From positions 372,001-436,000 of the forward strand of contig NZ_FTOH01000002.1 in the NCBI RefSeq assembly GCF_900156675.1: a DNA stretch of 64,000 bases. The letters are read 5' to 3'. Positions 40,759 through 48,522 of this stretch are shown here, piece after piece. Below the pieces are notes generated by a model. The model worked only from the letters and a program-made list of their open reading frames with translations, was not told the origin of the DNA and searched no databases. A program made the position numbers and the translations under genes. The stretch is from Thalassolituus maritimus. Its GTDB lineage: Bacteria > Pseudomonadota > Gammaproteobacteria > Pseudomonadales > Oceanobacteraceae. Each line of letters starts with the position of its first letter. Position 1 is the stretch's first letter.

Positions 40759-43700
40759 CTATCGACTGAGGCTCGCTTTGTTGTGACTTCGCCTGTGAAG
40801 CCAGAAGTAGAGCACAGGCACCACAAACAAGGTTAATGTGGTCGCCGAGATAATGCCGCCAATCACCACAGTGGCGAGTGGACGCTGAACTTCTGCACCA
40901 ATGCCTGTATTCAATGCCATAGGAACGAAACCGAGCCCAGCGACCAGAGCCGTCATCAGCACAGGTCGCAATCGCCTTGTTGCCCCTTCAATGACAGCGT
41001 CGCGCAAAGCGACGCCCTGATCACGCAGCTGGCGGATAAAGGTCAGCATGACGAGTCCGTTCAATACCGAGATCCCGGACAGTGCGATAAAGCCCACGGC
41101 CGCTGAGATCGACATAGGTATATCTCTCAACCACAGCAGGAATATTCCGCCGGTCAGGGCCAGTGGTACACCACTGAAGATAATTAAGGCATCGCGCAGA
41201 TTCCCGAACGCCGACACCAGCACGAAGAGAATAAGTGCCAGAGTCGCCGGTACCACCCAGCGCAGCGTTTTCTCGGCAGACTGAAGCTGCTCGAAGGTCC
41301 CGCCGTATTCCAACCAGTAGCCACTGGGCAAATCGATCTCGGACATGGCCCTTCGCTGGACCTCTCCGATAAAACTCCCCAGATCGCGACCCCGTACGTT
41401 GGCACTGATAACAATGCGACGTTTGCCGTTTTCACGGCTGACCTGGGCCGGCGCGGGCGCGAGAATAACGTCCGCGACTTCACTCACAGGCACAAACCCG
41501 CCACCTGCAAGCGGTACAGGAAGCGCTTTGATCAGCTCTGTATTCCGGCGCAGAGATTCGGGAAATCTGACGACTAACGGAATACGTTGGTCTCCACGAT
41601 AGATCAGCCCCGCCTGTTGTCCGCCGACAGCCGTCGATAGCAGAGACTGAATATCATCGACCGTTAAACCATAGGCCGCCAATTTCTGGCGTTTGGGGTG
41701 AAGGGTTAACACGGGTAGACCTGTGACCTGCTCGACCCGGACATCGGCGCTGCCGTCCACTGAGTTCAGCAGGGCAGCAACCGCATTTGCTGCAGTAAGA
41801 AGCTGGTTCAGGTCATCACCGAACACTTTGACGCCAAGGTCGGCGCGTACTCCAGAGATCAGTTCATTGAAGCGCATCTGGATGGGCTGAGTGAATTCAT
41901 AGTTATTACCCGGGAGTTCCCGCACGCTGGCTTCAATCTGCTCTACCAGATCCGCTTTATGCCGCTCCGGGTCCGGCCATTGTGCCTTGGGCTTGAGGAT
42001 GATGAAGGTATCCGCGACATTGGGCGGCATAGGGTCGGTCGCGATCTCCGGTGTGCCAAGCCGGGAGAAAACAGTCTTAACTTCAGGGAAGGTAAGAAGG
42101 CGCTCCTCAAGTAATACCTGCATATCTAACGACTGTTGTAGAGAGGTGCCGGGAATACGCAAGGCATGGAGTGCAATATCCCCTTCATCCAGCTGAGGAA
42201 TGAATTCTGAACCTAGGCGAGTGCTGAGAATCAAGGCGCCAACGATAAGCAGGGCGGCTGAGCCGATCATCATCACAGGAACACCCAGGGCAGTACGCAG
42301 AAGTCGCTCATAAAGTGACTGGTAGCCGTATCGCTTTGATTCGACAGACGACGCGCCAGATGGCTCGGTATGATGAACGCCTGTCCCGTTCCTCAGAAAC
42401 ACAGCGATAGCGGCAGGCACCAGCGTGATACTGATGATCATGGCGGAGAGCAGGGCGATCACCACGGTTGCGGCCATCGGGTGAAACATCTTTCCTTCGA
42501 TGCCGGTGAGGCTGAAGATGGGGATATACACCAGAGTGATGATGGCGACGCCGAACAGGCTGGGTTTCATCACCTCTGCGGTTGCTGAGTAAACCAGTTC
42601 AAGACGCTCGCGCAAGGTCAGGGCTGACCCGCTGGCGCTCAGGCGCCTCACGCAGTTTTCGACGATGATGACAGCGCCATCAACGATTAAGCCGAAGTCC
42701 AGAGCGCCCAGACTCATCAGGTTGGCAGATACGCCGGTCTGAACCATGCCGGTTACTGTGGCCAGCATCGCCAGAGGGATGACCGCCGCAGTAATCAGTG
42801 CTGCACGCAGATTGCGCAACATGATGAACAAAACAAAAATAACCAACAAAGCGCCTTCAAGTAGGTTGGTCTGTACCGTCGCCAGCGTCTTGCCCACCAG
42901 GTCTGTGCGGTTGTAAACAACTTCGGTCGTCACGCCATCAGGGAGACTGGTTGCGATATCTTGCAGGCGGCGTTCAAGCGCTTCCGCAACCTCTTTCGGG
43001 TTTTCCCCCATCAGCATCATGGCACTGCCCAGTACAGTTTCTGAGCCACCACGTGTCGCCGCGCCTGTGCGTAACTCTTCGCCCTGAGTGACCTCAGCAA
43101 GGTCCCGGATGCGCACAATGGCCGTACCGTTGCGAGCCACCACGGTATCGCGGATATCTTCTATCGACTTCAGTTGACCGACGGCTCTTACCAGCTGTTG
43201 TTCCCCATGGACTTCGATATAGCCTGCGCCACGGTTGCTGTTGTTGCGCCTGATCGCGGATACCAGCTGAGGCACCGTGATCTGGTGTTGCAGTAACAAG
43301 GCTGGGTCAGGGCGGATATGAATCTGCTCTTCGAAGCCACCGCTGGTATTGATCTCGGCGACGCCCGCAACCTGAGCCAGTTGCGGGCGTATTATCCAGT
43401 CCTGAACTGTACGCAGGGCCATGGCATCGTAAGGGCTGCCGTCCGACTGGCGAGCATCGCTGTCGGCCGTGACGGTATAACTGAATATTTCACCCAGTCC
43501 GGTACTGATTGGCCCCATCACCGGCTTCAGACCTTCAGGTAGGGCGTCGCTGATTTGGCCCAGTCGCTGATCAATCAGATTTCGTGCGTGATAGATATCA
43601 GTGCCGTCTTTGAAGACGACCGTCACCTGTGACAGGCCGTAGCGCGATAAAGAGCGCGTATATTCGAGTTGTGGCAAGCCGTAGAGCGCAGTTTCTACCG

Positions 43701-43902
43701 GAAACGTCACCCGTTGCTCGGCTTCCAGAGGCGAGTATCCGGTAGCTTCCGTATTAATCTGAACCTGAACGTTGGTGATGTCCGGTACAGCATCAATGGG
43801 TAAATAGCGATAACTCCAGAGTCCGGCGGCAATCAGAACCAGGCTGGAGGCCAGCATCATGAAGCGTCGCTCCACTGCCAGCCGTATTATGGCATTCAGC
43901 AT
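40759..43902 (-). CDS. czcA: heavy-metal efflux RND pump, divalent-cation (CzcA) type
   Basis: A 1047-residue inner-membrane proton-driven pump of the HME-RND family that exports metal ions through an adaptor and outer-membrane channel. The helix-4 motif reads DFGLIVDGAVIIVEN, which marks the divalent (Zn/Co/Cd/Ni) subclass; Cu/Ag pumps such as CusA lack this Asp/Asp/Glu set. The exact metal is inferred only. Last gene of the efflux operon, nine bases after the adaptor gene. Confidence 0.93.
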   Translation of the reverse strand: MLNAIIRLAVERRFMMLASSLVLIAAGLWSYRYLPIDAVPDITNVQVQINTEATGYSPLEAEQRVTFPVETALYGLPQLEYTRSLSRYGLSQVTVVFKDGTDIYHARNLIDQRLGQISDALPEGLKPVMGPISTGLGEIFSYTVTADSDARQSDGSPYDAMALRTVQDWIIRPQLAQVAGVAEINTSGGFEEQIHIRPDPALLLQHQITVPQLVSAIRRNNSNRGAGYIEVHGEQQLVRAVGQLKSIEDIRDTVVARNGTAIVRIRDLAEVTQGEELRTGAATRGGSETVLGSAMMLMGENPKEVAEALERRLQDIATSLPDGVTTEVVYNRTDLVGKTLATVQTNLLEGALLVIFVLFIMLRNLRAALITAAVIPLAMLATVTGMVQTGVSANLMSLGALDFGLIVDGAVIIVENCVRRLSASGSALTLRERLELVYSATAEVMKPSLFGVAIITLVYIPIFSLTGIEGKMFHPMAATVVIALLSAMIISITLVPAAIAVFLRNGTGVHHTEPSGASSVESKRYGYQSLYERLLRTALGVPVMMIGSAALLIVGALILSTRLGSEFIPQLDEGDIALHALRIPGTSLQQSLDMQVLLEERLLTFPEVKTVFSRLGTPEIATDPMPPNVADTFIILKPKAQWPDPERHKADLVEQIEASVRELPGNNYEFTQPIQMRFNELISGVRADLGVKVFGDDLNQLLTAANAVAALLNSVDGSADVRVEQVTGLPVLTLHPKRQKLAAYGLTVDDIQSLLSTAVGGQQAGLIYRGDQRIPLVVRFPESLRRNTELIKALPVPLAGGGFVPVSEVADVILAPAPAQVSRENGKRRIVISANVRGRDLGSFIGEVQRRAMSEIDLPSGYWLEYGGTFEQLQSAEKTLRWVVPATLALILFVLVSAFGNLRDALIIFSGVPLALTGGIFLLWLRDIPMSISAAVGFIALSGISVLNGLVMLTFIRQLRDQGVALRDAVIEGATRRLRPVLMTALVAGLGFVPMALNTGIGAEVQRPLATVVIGGIISATTLTLFVVPVLYFWLHRRSHNKASLSR

Positions 43903-43911
43903 GTGACCTCC

Positions 43912-44868
43912 TTAGTGCTGATGGGCAGCACCGGATTTTCCGATGTCTGCTTTTATCAGGTAGCTGTTGTCGGTCACGTATTCTTCGCCCGGATTCAGCC
44001 CGGCCGTTATTTCGGTGAACTTCTCGTCACTGGCGCCGGTGGTAACCGGGCGTGCTTCGTATTCTCCATCGTGATGTACAAACACTACGGTGTTGCCTTC
44101 GTGATTTTGCAGAGCACGATTCTCGACTCTTACCTGTGCGACGGTTTCTGCGGTGGTGATGTGAGCAAGTGTCACCTCGCCCGGCGTCAGGTCGCCATGT
44201 GGGTTGGGCACCTTAGCCCGCGCTCGCCAGAAGGGTCGGCCATGAGCGGGAGGGGCAATCGATTCGATCTGTGTCGAGATTTCGTGGGCAGGCAGCGTCA
44301 CTGGCTGTCCAGCTGTAACCTGAGTCCTTTGAGATGGGTGTACTGGGATTTCCAGCCAGAGCCCGGACAGGTCAACGATCACAAATAAGGGTTCGCTGCT
44401 CGCCAGGTTGCCTGACGCCGCATGGCTGTCGCTGATAACGCCTGAAATCGGTGATCTGACCTCATAGCGACTCAGGCTTTCATTGCTTTCGATGGTGGCC
44501 AGTGTTTGCCCTTTCTTAACGCTATCGCCGGGGGCGACCCGGACATCGGTAATCAGGCCGGGAAAGCGCCCGCTGAGCTGGATCTCCTGTTGAGGCGGTA
44601 CTACCAGAGTCGCGAAGATGGGGAGTGTTGCGTTTACCGTGCCAGACGATGCAATCGCGGTTCTGATACCGTTTGCGGTGGCCATCGCAGCAGAGATCTT
44701 CGTCGTATTTTCGTGCTCGTGCTCATGACCATGCTCTCCTTCATGACCGTGCTCTTTTCCATGACTATGGCCGTGGCCTTCTTCGTGCTCATGATCGCCG
44801 GATGCGTGTACTGTTAAAGACAGGCTAAGCAGCAGGCAGATAGCCAGAGTGTGTGGTCGATACATCAT
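43912..44868 (-). CDS. czcB: RND efflux periplasmic adaptor with His-rich N-terminus
   Basis: A 318-residue membrane-fusion protein. Sec signal (cleavage near VHASG), then about 30 residues with 11 His interleaved with Glu and Gly (GHGHSHGKEHGHEGEHGHEH), a likely metal-binding tail. Next come the lipoyl/barrel-sandwich parts (VRVAPGDSVKKGQTLATI; YEVRSPISGVISD) and a beta-barrel domain. It is shorter than classical CzcB (about 520), with little coiled-coil. Its ATG overlaps the TolC-like stop codon (ATGA). Confidence 0.9.
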   Translation of the reverse strand: MMYRPHTLAICLLLSLSLTVHASGDHEHEEGHGHSHGKEHGHEGEHGHEHEHENTTKISAAMATANGIRTAIASSGTVNATLPIFATLVVPPQQEIQLSGRFPGLITDVRVAPGDSVKKGQTLATIESNESLSRYEVRSPISGVISDSHAASGNLASSEPLFVIVDLSGLWLEIPVHPSQRTQVTAGQPVTLPAHEISTQIESIAPPAHGRPFWRARAKVPNPHGDLTPGEVTLAHITTAETVAQVRVENRALQNHEGNTVVFVHHDGEYEARPVTTGASDEKFTEITAGLNPGEEYVTDNSYLIKADIGKSGAAHQH

Positions 44869-46142
44869 TGTGGGGTGTCCTGTGTTGTCTGGTTACTTAC
44901 TGCCCGGGCGGTTAATTCTTCTATCAGGGTGCGGCTGATCAGAGCGGCGCTGGCACTGCTGATCAGCTGGCGCTCAGCCTCAATCAATTCTTCGCGAGCG
45001 ATATGCCAGTCCTGATAGCGGTAACGACCCTGGGCGTATCCCTGCTCGACCTCATCCATGGCTCGTTTAAGTAATGGGATGATCTTTTGTTGGTAGGTAT
45101 TCACGCTGGCAGAGTGTTGCTGCAAGGCGCTCCAGGCGGTGTGAAGTCTTTGGGTTACGTCTCGTTTATGGGCCTGGTATTCATATTCACTCGCGACGGC
45201 ACGCTGGCGGGCTGCGCTGGCTGCGGATGATCCACGACGACCGCTGAAAAGAGGGATGCTGGCGGCCGCGCTCAGAGCCTCTTCGCGACTCTCTGCAAAG
45301 TGAGTAACGCCCACCCGCCACTCTACGCTGCCGGCGTTCCGGGCCTGTATCAGTGTCGAATCGGCTTCTGCCAGCCGTGCCTCGCTGGCATACACCTCAA
45401 GAACCAGCGCATCATCAACAGCGCTCAGCCGCTGAGGAAACTGACCGGGCGGGGTACTCAGATCGAACAGGTTGCCTGTCAGGCTGAGTTCTCCGCGTGG
45501 CTCCCCGGATGTCATCCAATAGCTTGTGAGCCGGTAAATATCGTTATCCAGCTGCAGTCGGGCCTGCTCTACGGCAGAGGCTGAGCGCTCAAGTGCCGCT
45601 TCAGCGCGAAGCTGATCGTTCTTCGGAGCAGCGCCGCGTTGGTGGCGTTTTTCAACAACCGCCAACGTCTGTTTATTCAGGCGCAGGCTCTCCTCTGCAA
45701 TCCTGAGCCTTTCCTGCGAGGCAAGCGTCGCTATGTAGGCACGGGTCACCTCGCTCAGTAACGATAAGGTCCGGGACTTACTCTGAGCGTCTGTGAGTTC
45801 GTAGGCCGATAATGCCTGCTGGTGACGGGCTCTGCGCTGCCCGCCCAGTTCGATGACCGACGACAGGGCGAGGGTGTACTCAGCCTGTGCTGCCTGTTGG
45901 TAACTACCATTTCCGATAAGGTTGTCGGCCTCGCCATTGAGAATAATCGGTGGAGCTAACGACAGCGTATCGACATCGGCCCTGCTGGCACGCTGAAGGG
46001 CCGAATATGCTTTGAATTGTGGGTGCGCCGCTTGTGTGCGCTGAATGGTTTCATCGAGGGTCAGAGCATGAGATGGCACTGACCACAAGGTACTGAGGCT
46101 CACAATCAGGCCCACAGCACCGCGTGTCATTGGTGATTTCAT
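44865..46142 (-). CDS. czcC: outer-membrane efflux channel (TolC/CzcC family)
   Basis: A 425-residue outer-membrane factor with Sec signal (cleavage after VPSHA) and the duplicated coiled-coil architecture of TolC proteins (e.g. LRAEAALERSASAVEQARLQ). I take the ATG at 46142 because CAGGAAA lies upstream; the frame is open 17 codons more. It is the channel for the adjacent adaptor and pump. First of the three pump genes, 75 bp after the His-rich small gene. Confidence 0.9.
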   Translation of the reverse strand: MKSPMTRGAVGLIVSLSTLWSVPSHALTLDETIQRTQAAHPQFKAYSALQRASRADVDTLSLAPPIILNGEADNLIGNGSYQQAAQAEYTLALSSVIELGGQRRARHQQALSAYELTDAQSKSRTLSLLSEVTRAYIATLASQERLRIAEESLRLNKQTLAVVEKRHQRGAAPKNDQLRAEAALERSASAVEQARLQLDNDIYRLTSYWMTSGEPRGELSLTGNLFDLSTPPGQFPQRLSAVDDALVLEVYASEARLAEADSTLIQARNAGSVEWRVGVTHFAESREEALSAAASIPLFSGRRGSSAASAARQRAVASEYEYQAHKRDVTQRLHTAWSALQQHSASVNTYQQKIIPLLKRAMDEVEQGYAQGRYRYQDWHIAREELIEAERQLISSASAALISRTLIEELTARAVSNQTTQDTPQ

Positions 46143-46217
46143 AAAATTTCCTGAATAGCTTATCTGTCGGGTAGTCATAAGGCAGCCCGGCAACGAGTGG
46201 CGTCATCGTTCAGCTAT

Positions 46218-46598
46218 TCAGGCAATCGGAGGGCGGTAGATCCCAGTGACGGGAGAGTGCGGTGGCCGGACAAAAGGGCCGGTCTGTTTAATAATCACAC
46301 TACTTAGTTGTGGTACCGACCAGCGCTGAGGCAGTGTGGTAGGAGTTGTGTGCTGGTGGCTGTGACAACCTGCGTGGCCGGTTTCCGGGCAAGCGTCTTC
46401 TGCTGTGTGATCCTGATGATCATGATCGCTATGGTGGGCGGCATCATGATGGGCAATGTCTGAGGCGTTGGGATCGGCAGCAAAGACATCCGTCACTTCA
46501 TTGAAAGGCGCGAGGTTCTGCAACATCAGCACAAGCAGCATCATCACCAGCGCGGGTGATGTTCGGGATAGTTGATGTTTGCGGTCGGTCGCTAGCAT
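46218..46598 (-). CDS. small His-rich exported protein of the metal-efflux operon
   Basis: A 126-residue protein with an N-terminal hydrophobic segment (ALVMMLLVLMLQNLAP), then a His/Asp-rich stretch with 11 His and 2 Cys, then a short tail ending RPPIA. Similar small His-rich proteins head metal-resistance operons (DUF2946/CopL-like); binding of zinc, cobalt or copper is inferred. It is first in the efflux operon and divergent from the ECF sigma gene, with an 84-bp shared promoter region. Confidence 0.75.
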   Translation of the reverse strand: MLATDRKHQLSRTSPALVMMLLVLMLQNLAPFNEVTDVFAADPNASDIAHHDAAHHSDHDHQDHTAEDACPETGHAGCHSHQHTTPTTLPQRWSVPQLSSVIIKQTGPFVRPPHSPVTGIYRPPIA

Positions 46599-46682: not shown

Positions 46683-47267
46683 ATGGCAGCAGAAAACCAG
46701 TTGCACGTGACCTTTCGTGACGAAGATATAGAAAGTCTGCGCAAGCAGATGCTCAGTTTTGCGCGACTGCAGCTCGATGATGAGCATCTGGCCGAGGATG
46801 CGGTACAGGAAGCTCTGGCCGGTGCGTTGAAAAATGCCTCTTCTTTTTCCAGACAATCGACTCTGAAAACCTGGGTTTTCTCTATTCTGCGAAGAAAAAT
46901 TGCGGATGTGCTGCGAGGGCAATACCGGGAGCCGGTGCGCGAAGCCTGTAAGGAATGCAGCACGGACGACGACGAACTCTTTGATGGACGTGGGCATTGG
47001 CAGGCGGGAGCGACCCCCAGACGCTGGGGTGACACGCATGAACTGGCCGATAGCACTCAGTTCTGGCAGGTGTTTGATACCTGCCTTGAGGCACTGCCCG
47101 CAGAGCAGGCAAGGGTGTTTATGATGCGTGAATTTATTGAACTGGATTCCGCAGAAATCTGCGCCTCGCTTGAACTGTCGACGAGTAACCTTCACGTTCT
47201 TCTACACCGTGCACGTCTGAAGTTGCGGGCATGTTTATCTGATCATTGGTTCGAGAGGGAGGCCTGA
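46683..47267 (+). CDS. ECF-type RNA polymerase sigma factor
   Basis: A 194-residue sigma-70 family protein. Sigma2 (DDEHLAEDAVQEALAGAL...STLKTWVFSILRRKIADVLR) and sigma4 (LEALPAEQARVFMMREFIEL...ICASLELSTSNLHVLLHRAR) are clear, with a longer linker than most ECF factors. It resembles the TIGR02943-type group. The anti-sigma gene starts two bases after its stop codon. By analogy with the RpoQ and SigF systems that control MNIO/DoxX metallophore operons, it likely drives the downstream hvfA-hvfX genes. Confidence 0.93.
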   Translation: MAAENQLHVTFRDEDIESLRKQMLSFARLQLDDEHLAEDAVQEALAGALKNASSFSRQSTLKTWVFSILRRKIADVLRGQYREPVREACKECSTDDDELFDGRGHWQAGATPRRWGDTHELADSTQFWQVFDTCLEALPAEQARVFMMREFIELDSAEICASLELSTSNLHVLLHRARLKLRACLSDHWFEREA

Positions 47268-47269
47268 CT

Positions 47270-47464
47270 ATGCTGAGCTGTGAGCAAGCTACCCGTTTAT
47301 TATCCGAAGGGCAGGACCGCACGTTAACCTTCCCCGAAAAAATGAACCTGAAAGTGCACACCGCGATGTGCTCAGGCTGCCGCGAATTTGGTCGCCAGCT
47401 GGGCTCGCTTAGAACCTTGATTCAGGAAGAAAAAGACGCCGGGCCTGCACCCGGTAAAAAATAA
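47270..47464 (+). CDS. zinc-finger anti-sigma factor (ZAS type)
   Basis: A 64-residue protein with the HxxxCxxC zinc motif of anti-sigma factors (VHTAMCSGCREF), no membrane helix and a basic tail. I use the ATG at 47270, two bases after the sigma gene stop; the frame is open eight codons earlier inside it. Cytoplasmic ZAS proteins hold ECF factors until metal or thiol stress releases them; that role is inferred from family and position. Confidence 0.85.
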   Translation: MLSCEQATRLLSEGQDRTLTFPEKMNLKVHTAMCSGCREFGRQLGSLRTLIQEEKDAGPAPGKK

Positions 47465-47555
47465 TTTCGGTTCCTGTAAGAAAAGTGCCAGCAGGTGCGA
47501 CTTACTCTATGTGCGGCAGATCCGCTGCAAATTTATTAATCAGAGAGAACTCACA
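47465..47555 (+). promoter_or_regulatory. candidate ECF promoter region of the hvfA-like gene
   Basis: This 91-bp gap separates the anti-sigma and hvfA-like genes. TGTAAG (47475-47480) lies 17 bp before CGACTT (47498-47503), a spacing that fits -35/-10 boxes of an ECF factor. GAGAGAAC just before the ATG is the ribosome site. Confidence 0.35.
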
Positions 47556-47894
47556 ATGAAAAAGACCATGACAACTTTATCTGCTGCAATGCTTCTTGGT
47601 GCCGCTTCGGCCACAGTCAGTGCTGCTGAAAATCCATTTGCATCACAGTCGCTGGAATCTGGTTATCAGGTTGCGGGCCATCACGCAGAAAAATCTACTG
47701 AAGGTAAGTGTGGCGAAGGCAAATGCGGTGCTAAGTCTGAATCTGAAGGCAAGTGCGGTGAAGGCAAGTGCGGTGAAGGCAAATGCGGTGCTAAGTCTGA
47801 AGCCGAAGGTAAGTGCGGCGAAGGCAAGTGTGGCGGTGCTAAGTCTGAATCTGAAGGCAAATGCGGCGAAGGCAAATGCGGCGGCTCTAAATAA
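47556..47894 (+). CDS. hvfA: HvfA-like EGKCG-repeat RiPP metallophore precursor
   Basis: A 112-residue exported peptide. Sec-type signal (cleavage after VSA, residue 23), then NPFASQSLESGYQVA, a leader-like stretch shared with HvfA proteins, then residues 49-109 holding nine EGKCG units in groups of 2-3-2-2, separated by AKSE(S/A). All nine Cys lie in EGKCG. In HvfA/GigP-type peptides, an MNIO enzyme (HvfB/DUF692) with HvfC (DUF2063) converts these Cys to oxazolone-thioamide groups that bind copper. Here the next gene is hvfX-like, and hvfB/hvfC are absent. The ATG at 47556 follows GAGAGAAC. Confidence 0.88.
   Translation: MKKTMTTLSAAMLLGAASATVSAAENPFASQSLESGYQVAGHHAEKSTEGKCGEGKCGAKSESEGKCGEGKCGEGKCGAKSEAEGKCGEGKCGGAKSESEGKCGEGKCGGSK
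47700..47882 (+). repeat. coding tandem repeat (EGKCG units)
   Basis: Nine 15-bp units encoding EGKCG, interspersed with three 15-18-bp spacers encoding (G)AKSE(S/A). Many units are near-identical in DNA, so copy number may vary between strains. Confidence 0.93.
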
Positions 47895-47922
47895 GAGTCC
47901 TCTGGCAGAAAAAGGCTGACCT

Positions 47923-48522
47923 ATGCTCAGAACAATGACTCAACACTATAACGCTGTACTTCAGCGGATCCTGCATCTCGATGGTCTTGCACCTCTGTTG
48001 CTTCGGCTTTATCTGGCGCCAGTGATGATGCAGGCTGGTTGGACGAAATTTCAGTCGTTCGACAGTACAGTGGCATGGTTTGGTAACGCTGACTGGGGCC
48101 TTGGGTTGCCATTCCCTGAGCTGATGGTTGTGCTGGCAGCAGGCACCGAGCTGGTGGGCGGCGCACTGCTGATCCCCGGTATTGCAGTGCGGCTGGTCAG
48201 TATCCCGCTGATGGCGACCATGGTCGTCGCGGCCCTGACGGTGCATCTGGAATATGGCTGGCTTGCCATTGCAGACAGTAGTTCGTGGCTGGCCAATGAG
48301 CGTGTTCTGGAATCGGCGGAACGTCTTGAACGAGCCAAAGGAATCCTGCAGGAGCATGGAAATTACAGCTGGCTCACCGGGCGCGGTTCCCTCGTTGTAC
48401 TTAACAACGGTATCGAATTCGCTGCGACCTATTTTGTGATGTTGCTGACCTTGCTGTTTACCGGCGGTGGCCGCTATACCAGCGTTGACTACTATGTTTC
48501 CCGCTCCCTGGATCGCAACTGA
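47923..48522 (+). CDS. hvfX: DoxX-family membrane protein (HvfX/GigT-like)
   Basis: A 199-residue inner-membrane protein with about four helices and the DoxX pattern (LRLYLAPVMMQAGWTKF; AAGTELVGGALLIPGIAVRL). It has a long loop between helices 3 and 4 (about residues 115-155) typical of the HvfX subgroup. In metallophore operons this gene follows hvfA-hvfB-hvfC; here it follows the hvfA-like gene after 28 bp. The role in the family is thought to be membrane-linked maturation or metal handling. Terminator at 48544. Confidence 0.88.
   Translation: MLRTMTQHYNAVLQRILHLDGLAPLLLRLYLAPVMMQAGWTKFQSFDSTVAWFGNADWGLGLPFPELMVVLAAGTELVGGALLIPGIAVRLVSIPLMATMVVAALTVHLEYGWLAIADSSSWLANERVLESAERLERAKGILQEHGNYSWLTGRGSLVVLNNGIEFAATYFVMLLTLLFTGGGRYTSVDYYVSRSLDRN

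Follow-up and report, generated by a model that had tools for sequence, protein, structure and literature searches.

The hvfABCX operon of Haemophilus influenzae (oxazolin) encodes an EGKCG precursor with a signal sequence (HvfA), HvfB, HvfC and a DoxX protein of the HvfX type, all in one operon (PMC13419390). According to the same source, HvfBC modifies full-length HvfA and acts much less on HvfA without its signal sequence, and HvfX was called uncharacterised in 2026. A DoxX-DUF2063-COG3220 operon of H. influenzae depends on the ECF sigma factor RpoE2, which has a 67-aa anti-sigma factor (PMC7907618); reading the two reports side by side, this RpoE2 (HrsE)-controlled operon is taken to be hvf. 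An EGKCG precursor, an MNIO and a DUF2063 protein are also found in mmrABC of Microbulbifer (bulbicupramide, PMC12538549) and in fonABC (fontiphorin, PMC13097082), and FonBC is described as tolerating most single substitutions in its substrate (PMC13097082). For bufferin and Buf_EGKCG precursors located away from MNIO genes, it has been proposed that an MNIO from another locus modifies them or that they stay unmodified, and whether they are modified was left open in that account (PMC12452194). Sigma and anti-sigma genes occur in the Sigma/NrsF-controlled Buf1 bufferin clusters, such as that of Caulobacter sigma-F (PMC12452194), a system described as a heavy-metal response (PMC3511200).

The stretch of DNA analysed here (64 kb, referred to as the window) belongs to a genome of 3.86 Mb in 30 contigs (G000). 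The original prediction described an operon for an ECF sigma factor, its anti-sigma factor, an EGKCG peptide and HvfX, without maturation genes. The coordinates and gene calls were borne out by profile models (Table 1), the sigma factor and the adjacent anti-sigma factor both exceeding their model cut-offs. By eye, HTAMCSGC in the anti-sigma factor corresponds to HxxxCxxC. The predicted gap of 28 bp between hvfA2 and hvfX was confirmed (bases 47895-47922), and no MNIO or DUF2063 gene was present in the window, as had also been claimed. Positions 40759-46598 of the minus strand, divergent from the sigma gene, hold heavy-metal efflux genes of the CusA/CzcA type (TIGR00914 1401.6 bits, cut-off 701.45) together with a gene for a small His-rich protein. 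Among 15 loci compared, efflux genes lie beside sigma only in G000, G029 and G030.

Table 1. Features of the window operon
Feature	Coordinates	Strand	Evidence
ECF sigma factor, 194 aa	46683..47267	+	TIGR02943 226.5 bits (cut-off 162.2); PF04542, PF08281
Zinc-type anti-sigma factor, 64 aa	47270..47464	+	NF052368 75.5 bits (cut-off 50); PF13490 32.2 (cut-off 22.2)
Candidate promoter-like motif, TGTAAGAAA-N14-CGAC	47475..47501	+	Starts 81 bp before the hvfA2 ATG
HvfA2 (second EGKCG precursor), 112 aa	47556..47894	+	NF050137 77.7 bits (cut-off 19.5)
HvfX, DoxX-family membrane protein	47923..48522	+	NF050144 229.2 bits (cut-off 80); PF07681 75.3 (cut-off 23.6)

The whole genome was searched for both enzyme families. 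Two matches to PF05114 (MNIO) and two to PF09836 (DUF2063) were obtained, the latter beside the former, all on two other contigs (C15 and C18). An MNIO and a DUF2063 protein co-occur with HvfA2 in this genome, not in cis. The C15 locus has the order hvfA1-hvfB-hvfC, and its neighbours on either side were interpreted as a DEAH helicase gene and mlaA; it encodes HvfA1 (111 aa, 8 Cys), HvfB (417.2 bits, cut-off 360) and HvfC (207.7 bits, cut-off 142), and no DoxX gene was found there. An inverted repeat, CCTGT..ACAGG, precedes hvfA1 (L003 6490-6511) and is kept, by eye, in G029 and G030; it is perhaps an operator or a hairpin. The C18 locus is a bufferin-type MNIO-DUF2063-DoxX cluster with its own DoxX protein, which scored 55.2 bits with the HvfX model (cut-off 80). 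The Cys precursor of this cluster (L004 4720-7211) reached only 27.4 bits with BufA2 (cut-off 60), as a diverged precursor. Since C15 has hvfABC without a DoxX gene and the only HvfX above cut-off in the genome is that of the window, the two loci, judged by their sequences, complement each other as the halves of a single split hvf pathway. A complete hvfABCX operon elsewhere, of which the window operon could have been a decayed copy, was not found in this genome. Probably, HvfA2 belongs to a split hvf (EGKCG, oxazolin/captophorin-type) pathway and is matured in trans by HvfBC. The C15 operon without hvfX and the relatives G004 and G018 (see below) lend strong support to the earlier suggestion of a satellite-like precursor whose enzymes are encoded in trans.

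HvfA2 contains nine KCG motifs and nine Cys, all of them within KCG, and four stretches of its EGKCG repeats were recognised by the HvfA-family domain model NF050137. Its N-terminus is signal-peptide-like (by eye), and it has an AENPFASxxLxxGYxVA region. With the equivalog model NF050188 it scored 80.1 bits, below the cut-off of 95, and it is therefore filed as an EGKCG-family precursor and not as an HvfA equivalog; HvfA1 (66) and the G004 peptide (68.6) also failed this model. Similarity to HvfA outside the repeats, on which the original prediction depended, is present: the non-repeat N-termini of HvfA2 and HvfA1 gave a score of 95, against a mean of 24 and a maximum of 44 in 1000 shuffles (0/1000 reached 95). 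This common region matters, because HvfA without its signal sequence is reported to be poorly modified (PMC13419390). The acceptance of full-length HvfA by HvfBC, together with the substitution tolerance described for FonBC, fits one enzyme pair serving two precursors. By analogy, HvfA2 is probably a copper-binding peptide.

In order to compare the locus with those of relatives, HvfX, MNIO and the EGKCG peptide were sought in 44 family genomes, this one among them; a match over cut-off was present in 33, 39 and 35 genomes, respectively, and 40 chosen loci, a selection of all matches, were fetched. An MNIO was present in 34 of the 35 genomes with an EGKCG model match, the exception (G011) being 72% complete. 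Fifteen window-type HvfX loci were found, the window included. The sigma gene is adjacent in 14 of them (divergently in G004) and about 32 kb away in G016, and the order sigma, anti-sigma, peptide, HvfX is kept in relatives. Of the 37 genomes, with our own, in which the sigma factor was sought, 24 gave a match (E <= 1e-25). HvfA2 is encoded at nine of the 15 loci, in nine family genomes with our own, and all nine carry an MNIO with adjacent HvfC elsewhere; it is missing from the other six loci and is thus dispensable. Seven complete hvfABCX operons occur among the family loci read. All 27 hvfB loci read (C18 type excluded) adjoin a gene that BLAST matched to the helicase or MlaA of the own genome (helicase at 23, MlaA at 22; several near contig ends or weak), with or without hvfX in the operon. 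When compared with G030, dN/dS was 0.043 for sigma, 0.026 for hvfX and 0.131 for hvfA2 (repeats included); the anti-sigma gene gave 0.024 against G029, dS being saturated against G030. The window genes are under purifying selection, and the conserved gene order together with the low dN/dS makes the arrangement more than chance.

HvfX has a wider distribution. From at least 585 loci found in a broader survey, 80 were kept, some with short flanks: 63 HvfX genes without hvfB in the flanks, three with the sigma arrangement and 14 complete operons. Separation of hvfX from hvfABC is therefore common. Twenty of the 63 genomes were tested for MNIO, and all had one somewhere. Shewanella, Ferrimonas, Alteromonas-type and other genomes are among those with stand-alone HvfX genes (loci L138-L215 without hvfB), not linked to hvfABC. 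Among the loci read, this family alone showed the sigma-hvfX unit, whether or not hvfA2 was part of it. The original prediction had called the arrangement unusual; this holds only in part, given that unlinked precursors had already been reported (PMC12452194) and that hvfX is often found away from hvfABC.

The consensus TGTAAGAA-N14/15-CGAC precedes hvfA2 at 9/9 loci. A two-box matrix, built from eight of the nine and from hvfA2 upstream regions only, was scored on the 250 bp before the transcription unit holding hvfB in 34 of the 37 sigma-searched genomes (without G020, which has no MNIO, and G044 and G045, whose hvfBC loci were unfetched). At 15 bits or more, the motif was found in 14/23 sigma-bearing and 0/11 sigma-lacking genomes (Fisher p 0.0007, in a test that ignores kinship); the values were 16/23 and 1/11 at 13 bits, and 12/23 and 0/11 at 17 bits. 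When six motif-bearing hvfA1 upstream regions were compared with 300 first-order shuffles each, the score was reached by one shuffle or by none (p 0.003-0.007). The motif also stands before hvfX at four of the six loci without hvfA2, two of the four being nearly identical. Genome-wide, the pattern was hardly more frequent than its reversed control (62 vs 47 matches in 22 genomes; 3 vs 5 in the own genome), so that the case for the motif rests on its position. On this basis, it is a good candidate for a promoter shared by the hvfA2 and hvfBC loci of relatives. It precedes stand-alone hvfX outside sigma loci in only 2 of 63 cases, one of them an Oceanobacter locus of this family, and hvfA in 4 of 14 complete operons outside the family, sigma having been sought in seven of those 14. 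No motif was found before hvfABC in the own genome and in five of six tested genus mates (G027, G029, G030, G031 and G034, the last also without hvfA2). A strict-pattern match at C15:380924, inside the helicase gene and about 0.6 kb before hvfA1, was considered as the own hvfABC promoter and taken as chance (reversed control: 1 forward, 2 reverse). A match at this place recurs in three relatives (L124, L126 and L127), perhaps from coding conservation. Another match, inside the sigma gene (46947-46973), recurs in many relatives and was taken as coding, with conserved CK..DD codons.

The following course of events is proposed. The sigma/anti-sigma pair would sense a stress and the promoter before hvfA2 would be switched on, leading to synthesis of the second precursor and HvfX; the window operon is probably under stress control. 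Still in the cytoplasm, HvfA2 would bind to and be modified by HvfB-HvfC from C15, whose own precursor would be HvfA1, and the modification, by analogy with characterised relatives, would yield 5-thiooxazoles. Sec would then carry the modified peptide into the periplasm, and there its Cys may bind copper or another soft metal of this kind. For both precursors, HvfX may contribute a late, membrane-located step. Since the hvfABC operon of the own genome lacks the motif, its sigma factor would raise the precursor and HvfX and not the enzymes. An extended version, which we regard as rather unlikely, holds that this is so in most of the genus. Because the switch would raise substrate and HvfX without HvfBC, stress would alter the precursor to enzyme ratio, and part of HvfA2 would be exported unmodified. 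One pathway would then supply two kinds of periplasmic Cys peptide, one heterocyclic and one with free thiols, and HvfX would be a general membrane partner, acting independently of the peptide too. The last point draws on G020 (93% complete), which has a sigma-anti-sigma-hvfX locus (L107 3017-4574) and in which no MNIO or EGKCG peptide was found; HvfX is therefore not strictly tied to the peptide.

Two relatives bear directly on maturation in trans. In G004 (99% complete, 2 contigs), the sole EGKCG peptide found is encoded at the sigma locus, and the sole MNIO lies over half a megabase away. There, hvfBC follows, at a distance of about 120 bp, a gene interpreted as a ketoacyl synthase, and no EGKCG ORF was detected in the 8.8 kb read. 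The same picture is seen in G018 (99% complete, about 60 contigs), where the sole EGKCG peptide found is at the sigma locus and hvfBC elsewhere; its peptide is diverged and several repeats read GSCG. The surroundings of both hvfBC pairs were searched for precursors of the EGKCG kind only, and because the only such peptide found is apart from hvfBC, its modification, if any, must occur in trans. The question left open in PMC12452194 is thus answered as far as gene content goes, by a sole EGKCG precursor apart from a sole MNIO. Relatives of this type also make the split arrangement testable. That HvfA2 instead remains unmodified and is exported to buffer thiols or metal directly with its free Cys, HvfBC serving only HvfA1, would agree with the absence of an enzyme gene at the locus and with the motif-free hvfBC of the own genome, which could become limiting under stress. 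This idea, already part of the original prediction, found no support and is considered improbable: an MNIO accompanies HvfA2 in nine of nine genomes, HvfA2 shares a leader-like region and an EGKCG core with HvfA1, and hvfBC of G004 and G018 would be left with no EGKCG substrate that was found.

Modification by the bufferin-type MNIO of C18 and not by HvfB is very unlikely. A second MNIO-DUF2063-DoxX cluster does exist in the genome, but its enzyme lies above the BufB cut-off (312.3 bits against 310) and below that for HvfB (215.1 bits against 360). Moreover, seven of the nine HvfA2 genomes (G001, G004, G018, G027, G029, G030 and G031) have exactly one MNIO over cut-off, and it adjoins HvfC at the hvf locus.

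The history of the split was approached with quick trees of HvfX (22 of the 63 stand-alone loci used) and HvfB, both without bootstrap. All 15 window-type HvfX fall within one group of 35 sequences (SH-aLRT 94), which also holds the 14 of 14 complete-operon HvfX from Marinobacterium, Amphritea and relatives and six stand-alone ones; the window-type sequences form no clade of their own inside it. None of the seven HvfX from complete operons of the family itself belongs to this group (97). In the HvfB tree, whose root is unsure owing to a very long outgroup branch, the 14 Marinobacterium-type sequences form a clade without family members (98). HvfB from split genomes lies outside that clade, and that of G004 falls within its own genus (100). 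In the four g8 genomes inspected, the sigma pair adjoins the same lpxL-like gene, hvfA2 and hvfX are both missing there, and hvfX is near an MNIO elsewhere. The trans HvfX thus stands in for a cis HvfX, through reciprocal loss or acquisition, the trees being compatible with both. Descent from a second full hvfABCX by loss of B and C is possible, and the grouping of the window HvfX with complete-operon HvfX of Marinobacterium and Amphritea relatives, apart from the family's own, agrees with it, but a decaying relic without present function is very unlikely, given dN/dS of 0.02-0.13, an HvfX that is the genome's only one over cut-off and a motif kept upstream of hvfA2 in relatives.

The window HvfX has no Cys, so a redox role could not use thiols of its own. 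Its AlphaFold model has a mean pLDDT of 76.5, most of residues 117-161 being under 50, and gave no match to solved structures at E <= 0.001. Because these loci separate HvfX from the enzymes, its role can be tested without disturbing hvfABC.

Among the papers listed on HvfX and on MNIO enzymes with unlinked precursors, the relevant ones were PMC13419390 and PMC12452194. The components found here are those of H. influenzae hvf. In contrast to its single operon, hvfB and hvfC are unlinked from hvfX, the genome encodes two precursors, and the sigma gene accompanies hvfX and one of them. The mmr and fon systems share the precursor, MNIO and DUF2063 protein, and the cluster as described in PMC12538549 names no DoxX gene, like the C15 locus; unlike here, a second precursor accompanied by HvfX and placed under an ECF sigma factor does not appear in the descriptions in PMC12538549 and PMC13097082. 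Buf1 clusters resemble the window in combining sigma and anti-sigma genes with a precursor and differ in precursor family (DUF2282) and anti-sigma family (NrsF). Unlinked precursors are already in print (PMC12452194), and the window arrangement is a variant of these. Beyond what that account describes, the present loci add named cases whose gene content allows only trans modification, an unlinked hvfX and a candidate shared promoter.
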